In this document: one piece after another, positions 35,767-48,208 of the stretch
Layout of the letters: each line of letters starts with the position of its first letter
Numbering within the stretch: position 1 is the first letter of the stretch
Source: Bacteroidota bacterium
GTDB taxonomy: Bacteria; Bacteroidota; Bacteroidia; Palsa-965
DNA: 64,000 bases
Reading direction: 5' to 3'
NCBI GenBank assembly: GCA_006218065.1
Contig: VBWE01000011.1
Coordinates: 86,996 to 150,995, forward strand
Position numbers and translations under genes: made by a program
Notes under the pieces: model-generated
What the model saw: only the letters and a program-made list of their open reading frames with translations
Databases searched by the model: none
Told to the model about the DNA's origin: nothing

Positions 35767-36660
35767 TCAGTAATAAGATTCTACTTCGTGTTTCCCGGTA
35801 ACCAGCGCATGGTAAGCCTGCGCGAGGAAAGCGCCGTGCGTTTCGGAAAACGGTTTTCGGAATTGCATATCGTCTACAGAAGCAATGCCGGCTATTTCCG
35901 CCGCGGTGCCCGTAAAAAAAGCGCCGTCGGCACCGGCGAGCGCCCCGGGCCTGAAATATTTTTCTTCCACGGAGATGCCGGATTCACGCGCAATACCGAT
36001 AACGGTGCTTCGCGTGATGCCGGGGAAAATATTCCCGGCCGGTGGTGTAAATAGCGTGCCGTCTTTCTCGAAGAAAAAATTCGCACCCGGACCTTCTGCA
36101 ACAAATCCGTTCATATCCAGCAAAAGCGCTTCGTCGAAACCGCGTTTGCGCGCTTCGGTGGAAGCCAGCGTGGAATTCACATACTGGCCGGATGCTTTGC
36201 AGGCCATCGGAACCGCTTTCGGGTTCGGACGCTGGTATGGAGAAACCGCCAGGCGCAGCAGGCGATCGCCCAGGTATTTGGGCCAGGCCCAGGCTGAGAT
36301 CACCAGGTGACCGATGGCAGGCGCAACCAGGGTCATGTTCGGATCACCGGCAAAAGCCAGCGGGCGCAGGTAAGCGTCATCCAAACCATTTTTTTCCAGC
36401 ACGAGGTAACTCAACCGCGTCAGTTCTTCCACCGTGTAGTTCAACGGGATGTCCATCAATTCGCAGGAGTATTTCATCCGCTCGAAATGTTCTTTCGCTT
36501 TGAATATCTGCACACCCGATGGTGTTTTATAGGCACGGATGCCTTCGAACACGGCGTAACCGTAATGCAGCGATTGTGCATACACACTCACGCGGGCATC
36601 ATCCGCCGGGCAAAATTTATCGTTAAAAAAAACCGTTGTGTTTTCGTTGTAGTACGTCAT
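35767..36660 (-). CDS. ilvE: Branched-chain amino-acid aminotransferase
   Basis: 297 residues, fold-type IV PLP enzyme. The catalytic Lys155 is in CKASGQYVNSTLA; the N-terminal HYGYAVFEGIRAY and the EGPGANFFFEKDG and NIFPGITRSTVIGIARE motifs are all in place. It performs the last step of Val, Ile and Leu synthesis. It is the first structural gene after the tandem attenuators (28 nt from the second one), so it is the gene most directly exposed to attenuation. Confidence 0.96.
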   Translation of the reverse strand: MTYYNENTTVFFNDKFCPADDARVSVYAQSLHYGYAVFEGIRAYKTPSGVQIFKAKEHFERMKYSCELMDIPLNYTVEELTRLSYLVLEKNGLDDAYLRPLAFAGDPNMTLVAPAIGHLVISAWAWPKYLGDRLLRLAVSPYQRPNPKAVPMACKASGQYVNSTLASTEARKRGFDEALLLDMNGFVAEGPGANFFFEKDGTLFTPPAGNIFPGITRSTVIGIARESGISVEEKYFRPGALAGADGAFFTGTAAEIAGIASVDDMQFRKPFSETHGAFLAQAYHALVTGKHEVESYY

Positions 36661-36687
36661 ATTTTGGTTGTTTTGATTGGTTTGCTC

Positions 36688-36725
36688 AAAAAAAAACGCC
36701 CTCCCCTGCAGCGCGGGAAAGGCGT
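36688..36725 (-). terminator. Attenuator 2 terminator, in front of ilvE
   Basis: On the minus strand, ACGCCTTTCCC (36725-36715) pairs over 11 bp, with two G-T pairs, with GGGGAGGGCGT (36706-36696). An 8-nt loop lies between the arms and eight T residues follow. It lies between the second leader peptide and ilvE. Its 5' arm can instead pair with the end of the leader: GCGGG/AGAGG at 36744-36755 against CCTTTCCCGC at 36713-36722, with a 2-nt bulge. That is the switch expected of an attenuator. Confidence 0.8.
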
Positions 36726-36747
36726 GAACAATACAGGTTCGCTCCTC

Positions 36748-36807
36748 TCACCCGCCGGGTGGACGAATCACGATAATGACCACGATAGTTGCTTGTTGCC
36801 TGAACAT
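36748..36807 (-). CDS. Val/Ile leader peptide 2 of the ilv operon
   Basis: An ATG-initiated frame of 19 codons, MFRQQATIVVIIVIRPPGG, ending TGA. Residues 8-14 are seven consecutive Ile/Val codons (ATC GTG GTC ATT ATC GTG ATT) with no Leu codon. Such a run is the sensing element of ribosome-mediated attenuation: shortage of charged tRNA-Ile or tRNA-Val would stall the ribosome on it. It is followed at once by the antiterminator segment and terminator 2. There is no homology evidence, only composition and position. Confidence 0.8.
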   Translation of the reverse strand: MFRQQATIVVIIVIRPPGG

Positions 36808-36827
36808 GTTTGTTGTTTTTATGAAAC

Positions 36828-36861
36828 AAAACAGCCGCCCTGGAATCGGAGCGGCTGTTTT
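36828..36861 (-). terminator. Attenuator 1 terminator
   Basis: An 11-bp perfect stem (AAAACAGCCGC and GCGGCTGTTTT) with a 12-nt loop, the 3' arm ending in T residues and followed by TTTGTTTC. CCGCTCCG in the 5' arm and loop (36847-36854) is exactly complementary to CGGAGCGG at codons 21-23 of leader peptide 1 (36892-36899), so terminator and antiterminator are mutually exclusive. The stop of transcription here would precede leader 2. Confidence 0.78.
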
Positions 36862-36885
36862 GAACTGATATGCTGTTACATTTCG

Positions 36886-36960
36886 TCAATACCGCTCCGG
36901 GCCTGGTGTGATAATCACCACGCTTGATACAGAGCAGATAACGAAGTTTGATTGTTGCAT
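36886..36960 (-). CDS. Val/Ile leader peptide 1 of the ilv operon
   Basis: A 24-codon frame starting ATG CAA CAA and ending TGA. Seven of 24 residues are Val or Ile: Val7-Ile8, Val11, and the run Val14-Val15-Ile16-Ile17 followed by Thr18. Codons 21-23 (Pro-Glu-Arg) contain the segment that pairs with the terminator arm downstream, so a ribosome reaching the stop codon would mask it and permit termination. Placed about 21 nt after the promoter box. Call rests on codon content, position and the competing secondary structures. Confidence 0.75.
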   Translation of the reverse strand: MQQSNFVICSVSSVVIITPGPERY

Positions 36961-36980
36961 TTTTTTTCTGATTACTGCGG

Positions 36981-37012
36981 CAAATGTATAACAATGAAAA
37001 AACATAAGTCAA
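36981..37012 (-). promoter_or_regulatory. Promoter of the ilv operon
   Basis: TTG (37010-37012, within CTTGAC) and TACATTTG (36981-36988, exact match to TAnnTTTG) are separated by 21 nt on the minus strand. The site lies between leuB and leader peptide 1, so the ilv half can be transcribed independently of the leu half. Confidence 0.65.
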
Positions 37013-37059: not shown

Positions 37060-38166
37060 TCACAGTAATGCGTCCTGGTCACTGAACAGCAACGGGCCGG
37101 TTTCCAGGTCCTCTTTTTCGTTTATCCGCAAAGCAAGCAGGTCGCCCAGGCGCGAACAGGAAAGAAATTTTTCCGGGTTCAGCTCGCAGGTCACCATACC
37201 GCCGGCCACCGACCAGTCCACTGCTTCACGCACAGCCGCTGCCGCATCCGGCTCACCGAGATAATCGAGCATCATGGCAACCGACAAGATCGACGCTACC
37301 GGGTTCGCAGAATTCTTGCCGGCGGCTTCCGGGTACGATCCATGTACCGGTTCGAACAGGCCGGCATGTTCACCGGTTGAAGCCGACGGGAGCAAACCGA
37401 GCGAACCGGCAAGCACCGAAGATTCATCGGAGAGTATATCGCCGAACATATTTTCCGTGAGGATGACATCGAAACGCCGCGGCTCGCGGATAAGCTGCAT
37501 AGCGGCATTATCAACGTACATGCAATCCAACGTAACGTCCGGGAACTGCGGAGCGATTTCGTGCACGATGCTTCTCCAAAAGCGCGACGTTTCGAGTACA
37601 TTGGCTTTGTCCACCAGCGTAATTTTATTGCGGCGTGCACGGGCCAGTTGAAAAGCGCACCTGGTGATCCGTTCGATCTCCTGCCGGCTGTACACGCACG
37701 TATCGTAAGCCGATTCACAGCCGGCGCTGCGGCCGCTCGCTCCGTAATATAATCCGCCCGTGAGTTCTCTCACGACGACAAGATCGACGCCTGCGAGCAG
37801 TTCGTTTTTCAGCGGCGACTGTTCCGCGAGCTGCGGCCATGTTTTTACGGGACGCATGTTCGCATACAAACCGAGTTCTTTCCGCAACTGCAGCAAGCCC
37901 TGTTCCGGCCGGATTTCGGCCTGCGCGTATTTCGGATGGCCAACTGCACCCAGCAGCACGGCGTCGGAGGATATACAACCGGCCAGCGTCGGTTCGGGCA
38001 ACGGATCTCCGCAGGCATCGATAGCGGCAGCGCCGATCAGCGATTCATGCAAACCGAACCGCAGCGAAAAACGTTTTTCGATCGCACGCAGCACTTTCAG
38101 CGCCTGCGCAACAACTTCCGGACCGATACCATCGCCGGGAAGCACTGCAATGGAATAATTTTTCAT
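37060..38166 (-). CDS. leuB: 3-Isopropylmalate dehydrogenase
   Basis: 368 residues; oxidatively decarboxylates 3-isopropylmalate with NAD. Typical features: IAVLPGDGIGPEV at the N-terminus, substrate-binding arginines around QLRKELGLYANMRPVK and VVRELTGGLYYG, Mg-binding aspartates in FGDILSDESSVLAGSLG, and the NAD segment GKNSANPVASILSVAMML. Its start overlaps the leuD stop by 4 nt. It is the last gene of the leu group; the ilv promoter lies just behind it. Confidence 0.96.
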   Translation of the reverse strand: MKNYSIAVLPGDGIGPEVVAQALKVLRAIEKRFSLRFGLHESLIGAAAIDACGDPLPEPTLAGCISSDAVLLGAVGHPKYAQAEIRPEQGLLQLRKELGLYANMRPVKTWPQLAEQSPLKNELLAGVDLVVVRELTGGLYYGASGRSAGCESAYDTCVYSRQEIERITRCAFQLARARRNKITLVDKANVLETSRFWRSIVHEIAPQFPDVTLDCMYVDNAAMQLIREPRRFDVILTENMFGDILSDESSVLAGSLGLLPSASTGEHAGLFEPVHGSYPEAAGKNSANPVASILSVAMMLDYLGEPDAAAAVREAVDWSVAGGMVTCELNPEKFLSCSRLGDLLALRINEKEDLETGPLLFSDQDALL

Positions 38167-44471: not shown

Positions 44472-44553
44472 CAATTTGAAAATTTGAAGATGTTCATGCG
44501 CGGGGAGATCGTGCGCATTTTCTCAATTTTCAAATCGGTTAATTTTCAAATCA
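44472..44553. repeat. Intergenic palindrome of AATTTGAAA-type short repeats
   Basis: The left arm has AATTTGAAAATTTGAAGATG (8-nt period). The centre is a small GC stem, GCGC facing GCGC, around 44499-44515. The right arm has the complementary CAATTTTCAAAT followed by TTAATTTTCAAATCA. The right arm includes the stop codon of the last Kelch gene. Same structural class as the repeats at 16341, 17770, 21827 and 59828. Confidence 0.65.
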
Positions 44554-45777
44554 ATGCCAGATCATTTTCCCGGAAGCCAGTTCACGCTCGCCGGAAGCCA
44601 GCAGGTACAAATACGTTCCGGATGCAAGTCCTTCACGATCGACAGTGAAATTATCCTGCGAAATATTTTTGATTTCGCGGACGATGCGCCCGTTCATATC
44701 CAGCAGCACCAGGCGAAGTGAATTTCCGTACGGCATTTTTTCATCCAGGCTGAATGTGATGCGATCTGTCGCGGGATTCGGGTAAGCGCGAACATGCACG
44801 GCATTTCCGTCCTGCTCCGTAATGCCGACATACGAAGGATCGAATTCCCAGAAATCGCTCAGCATCACATTACTGTCATATCCGCAGGCGAGATATCCTT
44901 TTGTCCCGATGCTGAACCCGGCGGCATTCGCACGTGCCGAACCTCCGAAATTATTGATCTGCGTCCACATATTCGTCCCGGGATCGTACTGCCAGAAATC
45001 TTTCCGGTTGCTCAAGGTATTATCGTATCCGCAACCCATGTAACCGAGGTTGCCGATGGCGAAACCCGTTGCACCGTAACGCGGCGTTCCGCTGAAGTTT
45101 GCTTTTGCCGCCCAGGTATTGGACGAAGGCGTGTACTCGTAAAAATCTCCTTTGAAAACGCCGTCATCGCCGGAGCCCACATACGCCCTGCCGTTGATCA
45201 CGAAAGCAACCGCCAGGCGGCGGGGCGTTCCCGTAAAATTGGCTTTCATGGCCCAGGTATTTGCAGCGGGATCGTATTCCCAGCAATCGTTTTTCAGCAC
45301 GTAGTTCATATCCTGTCCGGTGCAGACATATCCTTTGGTGTTGATTGCGAACCCGACCGCTGAACGTCGTCCGCCCGGGGTGAAATTCGCTTTCTGTGTC
45401 CACACGTCAAAACCTGCATCGTATTCCCAGGTATCATCGAAAAAAGGATTCGATCCCTGCCCGCCTACCACGTATGCTTTTGTACCGACTACAAAACTGG
45501 CAGCCACATCACGGCCAAGTCCTGTTCCCGTGGGGCCACCCAGGCTTTGTGTTTGTGTCCAGGTGCTGTTCGCCAGGTTGAATACGTACATGCTGCGTTT
45601 GTACGAGTTGCTGTCGATGCCCAGCCCGACATAAGCGCCCTGTCCTACGCCGAAACCAATGCAGGACGATCGCGCACCGCCGGCATAGGTCGGTTTCAGG
45701 TTCCAGGCGCCCTGTGCAGAAAGCAGTTGCGAGGAGAACAAAAACAACACGAGTAAATAAGCCGATCTCAAAGTCAT
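44551..45777 (-). CDS. Kelch-repeat secreted protein with T9SS sorting domain (third in operon)
   Basis: 408 residues from the ATG giving MTLRSAYLLVLFLFSSQLLSAQ, a good signal peptide; a TTG eight codons upstream would overlap the preceding stop codon and remains possible. Six Kelch-like motifs of about 50 residues follow (pattern GFxIGxxGYxGxGxD, then DFWEYDPxxxxWTxKANF), forming a predicted beta-propeller at about 25-310. The C-terminal about 75 residues are a T9SS sorting domain (RAYPNPATDRITFSL). Probably a surface or released binding protein. Closely related to the two genes upstream. Confidence 0.9.
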   Translation of the reverse strand: MTLRSAYLLVLFLFSSQLLSAQGAWNLKPTYAGGARSSCIGFGVGQGAYVGLGIDSNSYKRSMYVFNLANSTWTQTQSLGGPTGTGLGRDVAASFVVGTKAYVVGGQGSNPFFDDTWEYDAGFDVWTQKANFTPGGRRSAVGFAINTKGYVCTGQDMNYVLKNDCWEYDPAANTWAMKANFTGTPRRLAVAFVINGRAYVGSGDDGVFKGDFYEYTPSSNTWAAKANFSGTPRYGATGFAIGNLGYMGCGYDNTLSNRKDFWQYDPGTNMWTQINNFGGSARANAAGFSIGTKGYLACGYDSNVMLSDFWEFDPSYVGITEQDGNAVHVRAYPNPATDRITFSLDEKMPYGNSLRLVLLDMNGRIVREIKNISQDNFTVDREGLASGTYLYLLASGERELASGKMIWH

Positions 45778-45797
45778 AACGGTGAGGGTATAGTTTT

Positions 45798-47018
45798 TCA
45801 AATGAGTTGAAGTTTGCCGGAATTGATCATGCGGGTCTCAGAAACCAGCCGGAATATGTACGTTCCTGCAGGAAGCCCGTTGCGCATGAATTCAAATGAA
45901 GCGTCCGCTTTTTCTTCGTGCACCAGCCGGCCATTCATATCAAAAAGCTGGAAGCGCAGATTTTTTTCGTTCTGCAGAATTTCCGGATCAATGAGCACGT
46001 CGCATTTTTCCTGCACGGGATTCGGGTAAACCACGATGCCTTTTTCCTGCAATTCGTGTTCTTCCACGCCCACATACCAGGGTACATACATCCAGAAATC
46101 GCGGCGGCTTCCGGTGAAACCTTTCCCGGTAGCTACGTAGGCAAAATTACCGATCGTGAACGAAGGTGCGGAACGCCGCGGACCTCCGTCGAAAGAAGAA
46201 CGCACGTACCAGGTATTGGAAGAAGGATCGTACGCATAGAAATCGTCTTTATAACCGCCGTCGGTACCGAGACCAACGTACCCGTAACCGCTCAGGGTAA
46301 ACGTAGTTACGGCAAAACGTTCAGAAGCGGGCAGGTTTGCGCGCTGCGCCCAGGTATTGGTTGCGGGAGTATATTGCCAGAGATCTTTGGTAAATGCGTT
46401 TTCATCCGTACCCATACCGACATACGCATTCGTTCCGATCACGAAGCTGCAGAGCCCGTAACGCGTACCGCCGGGAAACGGAGCCCGCGACAACCAACTA
46501 TTGGTAGTAGGATTGTATTCCCACAATTGCTGCGAATAGTTCGAAGAAAATATTTTTCCGCAGCAGACATATCCTTTTCCTGAAACAGCGAAACCGGTCG
46601 CGAAATAAATTGCCGCAGGATAGTTTGCCCTGGCAGTCCACGCATTGGTCGTAGGATCATATTCCCAGAAATCGTTCAGCGTATTTCCGTTGAATGATTC
46701 CGCCGCATCGATGCCTGTTCCGACGTATGCTTTATTCCCGATCACGAAACTTACCGCATCGCGGCGGGGAGCGCCGGGCAGCGAAGCTTTTTGAATCCAG
46801 CTGTCCGTCCCGGGATCGTATTCCCATAGGTCGTTCAGCACGACATCGGCGGTGTCTTCACCCATGCCGATATACCCGCGCGATCCGATGGAAAAACCCA
46901 CACCGCGCGACCGTTTTGATCCGCCGAAAGCGGTTTTCTTCATCCACACGTTAGCGCCCTGGCCGAAAACAGCTGCGCCGAGAAGAAGAAATACGGATAA
47001 AAGGAACAGCCTCTTCAT
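45798..47018 (-). CDS. Kelch-repeat secreted protein with T9SS sorting domain (second in operon)
   Basis: 406 residues. Signal peptide MKRLFLLSVFLLLGAAVFGQ. Six Kelch-like motifs (for example FSIGSRGYIGMGEDTADVVLNDLWEYDPGTDSW) form a predicted propeller, followed by a T9SS sorting domain (VVYPNPVQEKCDVLI, LFDMNGRLVHEE). It starts with an ATG overlapping the stop codon of the preceding Kelch gene by 4 nt, so production of the two is coupled. Clearly a paralogue of both neighbours. Confidence 0.92.
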   Translation of the reverse strand: MKRLFLLSVFLLLGAAVFGQGANVWMKKTAFGGSKRSRGVGFSIGSRGYIGMGEDTADVVLNDLWEYDPGTDSWIQKASLPGAPRRDAVSFVIGNKAYVGTGIDAAESFNGNTLNDFWEYDPTTNAWTARANYPAAIYFATGFAVSGKGYVCCGKIFSSNYSQQLWEYNPTTNSWLSRAPFPGGTRYGLCSFVIGTNAYVGMGTDENAFTKDLWQYTPATNTWAQRANLPASERFAVTTFTLSGYGYVGLGTDGGYKDDFYAYDPSSNTWYVRSSFDGGPRRSAPSFTIGNFAYVATGKGFTGSRRDFWMYVPWYVGVEEHELQEKGIVVYPNPVQEKCDVLIDPEILQNEKNLRFQLFDMNGRLVHEEKADASFEFMRNGLPAGTYIFRLVSETRMINSGKLQLI

Positions 47019-48208
47019 TTCAACACGATTTTAGAATTCGCTATGCTCGTTCCGTTTTCCAGGACCTGCAGAAAATAAACACCGGCCGGAAGTCCCTCGC
47101 GGTGAAATGCGTATGACGAAGACTGAATTCCCGCAATCGTGCGCACCAGTTTACCCTGCATATCGATGACCAGCAATTCGCCGTTACGAAGTTCCGCAGG
47201 AAATTCCAGCAAGGCCCGTTCTTCAACCGGGTTCGGATATACGTTGATTATTTTGATGGCGGGCGTTTCCTCTACTCCGCTCACGCTGCCGAATTCCCAG
47301 AGATCACGGTAATTCGTGCCGCTTGTACCGAGCCCCGCATATGCGCGGCTTCCGATCGTAAAACAGGTCAGGTATCGTCGTGCAGCGCCTGCAAAATCGG
47401 CCACCTGTACCCAACTGTTCGTCACCGGGTCAAAGCACCAGAAATCCTGGTAATTCGTGCCACTGGAAAAATTATCGCCTGTCCCGATATAGCCTTTACC
47501 CATCAGTTCGAATCCGCCTGCTTCCATCCGGGCCAGGCCGGGAAGCGGCGCTCGCGGGGTCCAGATATTCGTTACCGGATCGTACTCCCACATGTCATTG
47601 GATGGTCCGCCGTCATCACCGGTACCTACATAGCCTTTATTACCGATTGTAAATCCGACAGCCGAAATACGCCCGCCTGCCGGTAAAGACGCTTTCGGAG
47701 TCCAGGAATTTGTAGCCGGATTGTATTCGTAAAAATCAGCGTAGTATGATCCTGTACCGACGTATCCTTTGCCGTTGATCGCAAAACCCACAGCGCCGCG
47801 GCGGGCTGTGCCGGGGAAATTCGGAATCTGGGTCCACTGGTTGGTCAGTGCGTCGTATTTCCAGAAATCCGCCATCAGCACGCTGCTGGGCGCACGGCCG
47901 GTACCCACGTAAGCCGCATTCCCGACGACAAAACCGGCAGTATGATACCGCAGTCCGCCGCCGAAATTCGCTTTCTGCGTCCAGGTATCACTGCCGGGAT
48001 CGTATTCCCACCAATCCTGGTAAAGCACGTCAAACGTAGAATTGGTATGGCCAAGGCCCATGTATCCCCGGTTCCCGATGGTAAGCCCCGTTGACCTGTG
48101 CCGTGCGGGGCCGCCGTACATGGCTTTCTGCACCCAGGCATACTGCGTTTGCGCGCCAGCCAGCAGGGAAACAGAAATTGCAAAAAGAAAGAGTAGTCTT
48201 TTCTTCAT
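47015..48208 (-). CDS. Kelch-repeat secreted protein with T9SS sorting domain (first Kelch gene)
   Basis: 397 residues. Signal peptide MKKRLLFLFAISVSLLAGAQ, six Kelch-like motifs (FWKYDALTNQWTQIPNFPGTARRGAVGFAINGKGYVGTGS-type), then a T9SS sorting domain with NVYPNPVEERALLEF and VIDMQGKLVRTI. It follows the DUF4907 lipoprotein by 4 nt and overlaps the next Kelch gene by 4 nt. The role of the Kelch propeller here is unknown; ligand or glycan binding at the surface is likely. Confidence 0.92.
   Translation of the reverse strand: MKKRLLFLFAISVSLLAGAQTQYAWVQKAMYGGPARHRSTGLTIGNRGYMGLGHTNSTFDVLYQDWWEYDPGSDTWTQKANFGGGLRYHTAGFVVGNAAYVGTGRAPSSVLMADFWKYDALTNQWTQIPNFPGTARRGAVGFAINGKGYVGTGSYYADFYEYNPATNSWTPKASLPAGGRISAVGFTIGNKGYVGTGDDGGPSNDMWEYDPVTNIWTPRAPLPGLARMEAGGFELMGKGYIGTGDNFSSGTNYQDFWCFDPVTNSWVQVADFAGAARRYLTCFTIGSRAYAGLGTSGTNYRDLWEFGSVSGVEETPAIKIINVYPNPVEERALLEFPAELRNGELLVIDMQGKLVRTIAGIQSSSYAFHREGLPAGVYFLQVLENGTSIANSKIVLK

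Follow-up and report, generated by a model that had tools for sequence, protein, structure and literature searches.

The 399-nt gap between leuB and ilvE in the stretch of 64,000 nucleotides analysed here (the window, by which we mean that whole stretch) probably contains two complete and separately acting ribosome-mediated attenuators, arranged in series behind one promoter ahead of ilvEDBNCA, whose read-through would be multiplied. On the minus strand the genes run leuA-leuC-leuD-leuB and, beyond the gap, ilvE-ilvD-ilvB-ilvN-ilvC-ilvA; within the gap a promoter-like site is followed by leader 1, terminator 1, leader 2, terminator 2 and then ilvE (Table 1). A preliminary description had proposed one promoter and two leader/terminator pairs at this location, and every part was recovered where that description had placed it, on the minus strand. 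Its interpretation as two ribosome-mediated attenuators in series is also the best reading of the locus, given the anatomy, the absence of doubles from shuffled sequences, the conservation and the co-variation described below.

Table 1. Features of the leuB-ilvE region in the order of transcription (window coordinates; an asterisk marks the stop codon).
Feature	Coordinates	Strand	Sequence and remarks
leuB, last gene of leuACDB	37060..38166	-	Iso_dh
Promoter-like site	36981..37012	-	TTGACT 37012-37007 and TATACATTTG 36990-36981; recognised from sequence
Leader peptide 1	36886..36960	-	MQQSNFVICSVSSVVIITPGPERY*, 24 codons; control codons GTG GTG ATT ATC; counterparts in relatives
Module 1 antiterminator strand (region 2)	36892..36900	-	CCGGAGCGG; in final codons of leader 1; pairs with 5' arm of terminator 1
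Terminator 1	36824..36861	-	Hairpin AAAACAGCCGCTCC-GATTCCAG-GGCGGCTGTTTT, 36861-36828, then TTTTGTTT
Leader peptide 2	36748..36807	-	MFRQQATIVVIIVIRPPGG*, 19 codons; control codons ATC GTG GTC ATT ATC GTG ATT
Module 2 antiterminator strand (region 2)	36743..36757	-	CGGCGGGTGAGAGGA; spans leader 2 stop codon; pairs with terminator 2 5' arm
Terminator 2	36687..36725	-	Hairpin ACGCCTTTCCC-GCGCTGCA-GGGGAGGGCGT, 36725-36695, then T run
ilvE, first gene of controlled run ilvEDBNCA	35767..36660	-	Branched-chain aminotransferase, Aminotran_4; downstream genes from Pfam domains

Both modules show the hallmarks of ribosome-mediated attenuators, each having a leader ORF with an Ile/Val run and a hairpin of about -20 kcal/mol with a U tract before ilvE, together with an antiterminator that, from pairing and folding, is mutually exclusive with the terminator and lies where a ribosome halted at the stop codon would cover it. 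Leader 1 has three Ile and four Val codons and leader 2 has four Ile and three Val, with no Leu codon in either, in agreement with the earlier account of Val/Ile-rich leaders. Bacteroidota ribosomes are described as working without Shine-Dalgarno pairing (PMC9976891). If charged tRNA-Val or tRNA-Ile is scarce, a ribosome would stall on the Val/Ile codons of the leader, the antiterminator strand would remain exposed and could capture the 5' arm of the terminator, and RNA polymerase would read on; if charged tRNA is ample, the ribosome would reach the stop codon and cover the antiterminator strand, and the terminator would form. The translation, termination, stalling and multiplied output of the modules are predictions that we infer from the sequence.

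The folding calculations for the window agree with this scheme in both modules; the stalled state was folded from the sequence that the ribosome leaves free as far as the 5' arm and loop of the terminator, and the other state from the sequence still exposed with the ribosome at the stop codon. Region 2 of module 1 pairs with the 5' arm of its own terminator at -20.4 kcal/mol, the best among 123 arms tried, and the terminator 1 hairpin has an energy of -20 to -23 kcal/mol. With a ribosome stalled at GTG/GTG/ATT the antiterminator is the minimum free energy structure (-21.6 to -23.2), with the ribosome at the stop codon it is the terminator (-23.5), and with leader 1 untranslated the classical 1:2 hairpin forms along with the terminator (z -6.4). 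The U tract of terminator 1 is interrupted (TTTTGTTT), which counts against the attenuator model. In module 2, region 2 pairs with the 5' arm of terminator 2 at -19.2 kcal/mol, the hairpin of that terminator has an energy of -20 kcal/mol, and the minimum free energy structure is the antiterminator with a ribosome stalled on the Val/Ile run (-22.8) and the terminator with a ribosome at the stop (-20.5). At equilibrium the module 2 terminator is favored even with the ribosome stalled, so that the model needs kinetic, co-transcriptional folding, on which classical attenuators likewise depend.

The possibility that short ORFs and hairpins have been combined by chance was examined with a fixed detector, which looks for a short ORF rich in Val, Ile or Leu codons followed by a terminator within 75 nt. 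When the 400-nt region was shuffled 1000 times with its dinucleotides preserved, 990 of the shuffles contained no module, ten contained one and none contained two; for the upstream regions of relatives, 605 such shuffles gave ten singles and no doubles. Single spurious modules thus arise in 1-2% of shuffles, whereas 1605 shuffles yielded not one double, and the modules of the window are conserved in relatives with antiterminators that co-vary with their terminators; a chance origin has a negligible probability. When the entire window was tiled (490 tiles, both strands), two modules fell in one tile only, that of the leuB-ilvE gap.

Of the 395 genomes sampled from the class, 45 have a close relative of IlvE, mostly 43-64% identical to that of the window, whose own genome is the sole member of its genus in the sample; a further 80 named loci were added to this set. 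Among the resulting 123 distinct Bacteroidota ilvE-upstream regions, the detector assigns one module to 85 and none to 16, and 22 have two in series, with the qualifications that two of the 22 tandems (L006 and L008) were included on visual inspection, their terminator 2 being weak, and that the single and none labels are approximate. Of the 45 sampled Bacteroidia genomes with a close IlvE, 11 have the tandem. Carriers are found in the window's own family (L008, L009, L010), in other lineages including metagenome-assembled genomes (L006, L040, L042, L065, L083, L111), in Roseivirga pacifica (L093) and a relative (L041), Pontibacter indicus (L085), Tenacibaculum species (L094, L106, L124) and their kin (L055), Flavobacterium (L097, L100) and a near-identical neighbor (L050), Chryseobacterium lathyri (L115), and Myroides sp. 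1354 (L096). The first modules of four other loci (L048, L057, L059, L105) match the detector and are spurious by eye. The preliminary description had regarded two modules in series as unusual for Bacteroidota; the arrangement itself stands and its rarity does not, as single modules are common upstream of ilvE and about one region in five (22 of 123) has a tandem. Operons that begin with ilvD were also inspected, and of the 16 such loci five have one convincing module and none a convincing tandem; a second detector match in one of them (L162) appears spurious.

The check that had been proposed for the two-module reading, conservation in related genomes, supports it: a leader, a terminator and a co-varying antiterminator are present in each module of many relatives. 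Antiterminator pairing is a feature independent of the detector, and across 123 modules region 2 pairs with its own terminator arm at a mean of -15.12 kcal/mol, compared with -9.89 for permuted combinations (sd 0.25, lowest -10.88; 10,000 permutations), a contrast that may be inflated by relatedness, so that the comparison within genomes weighs more. In tandem genomes the strand pairs more strongly with its own arm than with that of the sister module in 18 of 19 cases, for module 1 and module 2 alike, L097 being a locus at which the own-versus-cross comparison fails. The pairing strand starts a median of 11 nt before, and ends 2 nt after, the end of the leader stop codon, and in 99% of modules it lies at the stop where a terminating ribosome could cover it. 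The 1:2 (pause/protector) hairpin gives set-wide values of -13.62 for own and -11.93 for permuted partners (sd 0.26) and is clear in module 1 of the window, with just a short local hairpin seen in module 2. The peptide endings of relatives are ..TGMV* in module 1 and ..RPPG* or ..PSG* in module 2, and the ..TGMV* and ..RPPG* endings are probably conserved because their codons encode the antiterminator strand.

These observations bear on the proposal that the terminators serve mainly to block read-through from the leu operon, with the leader ORFs of secondary importance. The end of leuB lies 47 nt from the promoter-like site and a terminator scan found no terminator between them, so that leu transcripts must meet both terminators. 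However, a plain double terminator needs neither Val/Ile leaders nor antiterminators, yet both are conserved and co-varying, and the modules sit behind a promoter-like site of their own; we regard this proposal as very improbable.

A phylogeny of IlvE raises the question of whether both modules contribute to control. The tandem label requires at least ten changes on the tree, six of them forced by well supported branches, and gain of the tandem is not distinguishable from loss. The window's closest neighbors on this tree belong to Hymenobacter and carry a single module, with a leader that can terminate in ..PLPAG*, as leader 2 of the window does. Because tandem and single forms interchange so often, the second module may be dispensable. 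An explanation in which one module exercises control and the other is a decaying duplicate or back-up terminator would accommodate these changes, as well as the weak terminator 2 of L006 and L008 and the near-identical adjacent copies in Myroides sp. 1354, which are a sign of fresh duplication. Most tandems nevertheless keep a leader, a terminator and a fitting antiterminator in both modules despite differing sequences, and the Tenacibaculum relatives retain both leader types (..SQG* and ..SSPPS*), which makes a single controlling module unlikely. In the Myroides region, from -550 to -30 relative to ilvE, a first module is followed by near-identical copies flanking a 100-N assembly gap; the locus has at least two modules and perhaps three.

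If two separately acting attenuators stand in series, polymerase must pass both terminators, and the fraction reading through would be Q = Q1 x Q2; with the same signal at both, logarithmic gains would add, so that basal expression would be lower and the response steeper than with a single module. This multiplication follows by arithmetic if the modules act independently. The preliminary description had offered a second function, a separation of the Val and Ile responses, and a version in which one module senses Val and the other Ile (or Leu) with AND-type logic can draw on slight differences in the last codon runs (VVII then T in leader 1, IVVIIVI in leader 2) and on Salmonella mgtCBR, in which tandem leader ORFs read different signals (PMC3641672). 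Against it, both leaders of the window mix Ile and Val codons, and over 22 tandem regions leaders 1 and 2 have equal shares of Ile (0.64 and 0.63; Wilcoxon p 0.79), Val (0.27 and 0.24; p 0.31) and Leu (0.09 and 0.13; p 0.32). Since the two leaders are equal in this respect, no Val-versus-Ile split is supported, and such a division of labor seems quite improbable; multiplied regulation is the remaining option of the two.

The promoter arrangement points the same way. The sequence TACATTTG in the promoter-like site fits the Bacteroidota -7 form TAnnTTTG and is the single box of its kind in the region, no second one having been found between the window's two modules. Several other tandem loci have a comparable box ahead of leader 1. 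The distance between modules is about 20 nt in the window and about 13-25 nt in most tandem loci, which leaves little space for a second promoter. With equal leader codon content, a single -7 box and a gap of about 20 nt, multiplication on one signal would be the simplest logic. Among the tandem loci, only L065 has a -7 box between its modules, TACATTTG directly behind terminator 1 and overlapping its U tract, and for that reason module 2 of L065 may have its own promoter.

Single leader-terminator units are also present on the same contig about 9-13 kb past the end of the window, before hisG (L147; leader MKRFFHLHHHVVFPAR, with a ..HLHHH.. run) and trpE (L148; leader MKTIINKHWWWHTEANQLAG, with a ..HWWWH.. 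run). A search of the same genome for tandem units before the his, trp and homoserine dehydrogenase genes gave one unit for his, one for trp and none for homoserine dehydrogenase. From the single his and trp units, attenuation appears to be in general use in this genome, and the doubling appears to be particular to ilv among the operons examined. Upstream of leuA (41380-41320, minus strand) there is a five-codon ORF, ATG CTG ATT TTG GTT TGA (MLILV*), which overlaps an inverted repeat (GCTGATT..AATCAGC) with TTATTTTG behind it; this may be a very small attenuator of the leucine type before leuACDB. Two further observations in the window are a very short acetolactate synthase small subunit (79 aa, ACT domain only; 32331-32092, minus strand), missed by the ORF list of at least 100 aa, and three adjacent similar genes for secreted beta-propeller (kelch-like) proteins of ~400 aa each (44551-48208, minus strand), which are apparently tandem duplicates.

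The ilv operons are classical targets of ribosome-mediated attenuation, and the ilvGMEDA and ilvBN operons of E. coli have one module each. These resemble the present locus in having a branched-chain-rich leader peptide and antiterminator/terminator alternatives before ilv genes, and differ in that one module stands where there are two in series here. A comparative study by Vitreschak and co-workers (2004) reportedly covered attenuators beyond proteobacteria. An Rfam search of the window gave no T-box, riboswitch or known leader family above threshold, and the sub-threshold matches look like chance; the T-box covariance model in particular matched nothing in the window, and nothing in the region with E values relaxed to 10. 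Tandem T-boxes and other tandem same-ligand riboswitches, of which a pseudo-cooperative response is expected, likewise repeat complete sensor-plus-terminator units for one signal (PMC12452182), although their sensor is an RNA aptamer or T-box and here it would be a translating ribosome. Leader-peptide attenuation has been inferred by transcriptome mapping upstream of amino-acid biosynthesis operons of Flavobacterium psychrophilum, a member of the same phylum, with no tandem mentioned in main-text passages of that report (PMC9723704).

The closest parallel in organization is the mgtCBR leader of Salmonella, in which two ORFs in one leader RNA, mgtM and mgtP, are each tied to transcription control and answer to ATP and proline; its authors call the system a singular example and note that it is without two intrinsic terminators, unlike metE tandem riboswitches (PMC3641672). 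In contrast to these different signals, the window locus has two terminators and one amino-acid class, and a two-signal tandem of the mgtCBR type is not supported, as leaders 1 and 2 have the same Ile/Val/Leu make-up, judged from their codons. The mgtCBR leader was the only tandem leader-ORF transcription attenuator that we found in the open-access literature, covered in part; the search turned up neither a series of ribosome-mediated attenuators for the same signal nor any tandem leader-peptide attenuators in Bacteroidota. Each unit is ordinary, and it is the series of ribosome-mediated attenuators for the same signal, recurring across a phylum, that is new as far as the searchable literature shows.

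These findings point to leader-peptide attenuation as a main mode of ilv control in Bacteroidota, and the recurrence of the double arrangement in distant relatives suggests that it is a selected way to tighten that control. We consider it reasonably likely that the series of modules for one signal is a widespread and repeatedly evolved device in this phylum, in which copy number (one, two, or perhaps three in Myroides) would adjust how steeply ilv expression responds and over what dynamic range. For single attenuators, theory links sensitivity to the design of the leader and asks what sets the sensitivity of ribosome-mediated attenuators (PMC1183508), a question on which relatives with one and two modules bear; standing before the same gene, such relatives offer a ready-made test of whether stacking multiplies control.
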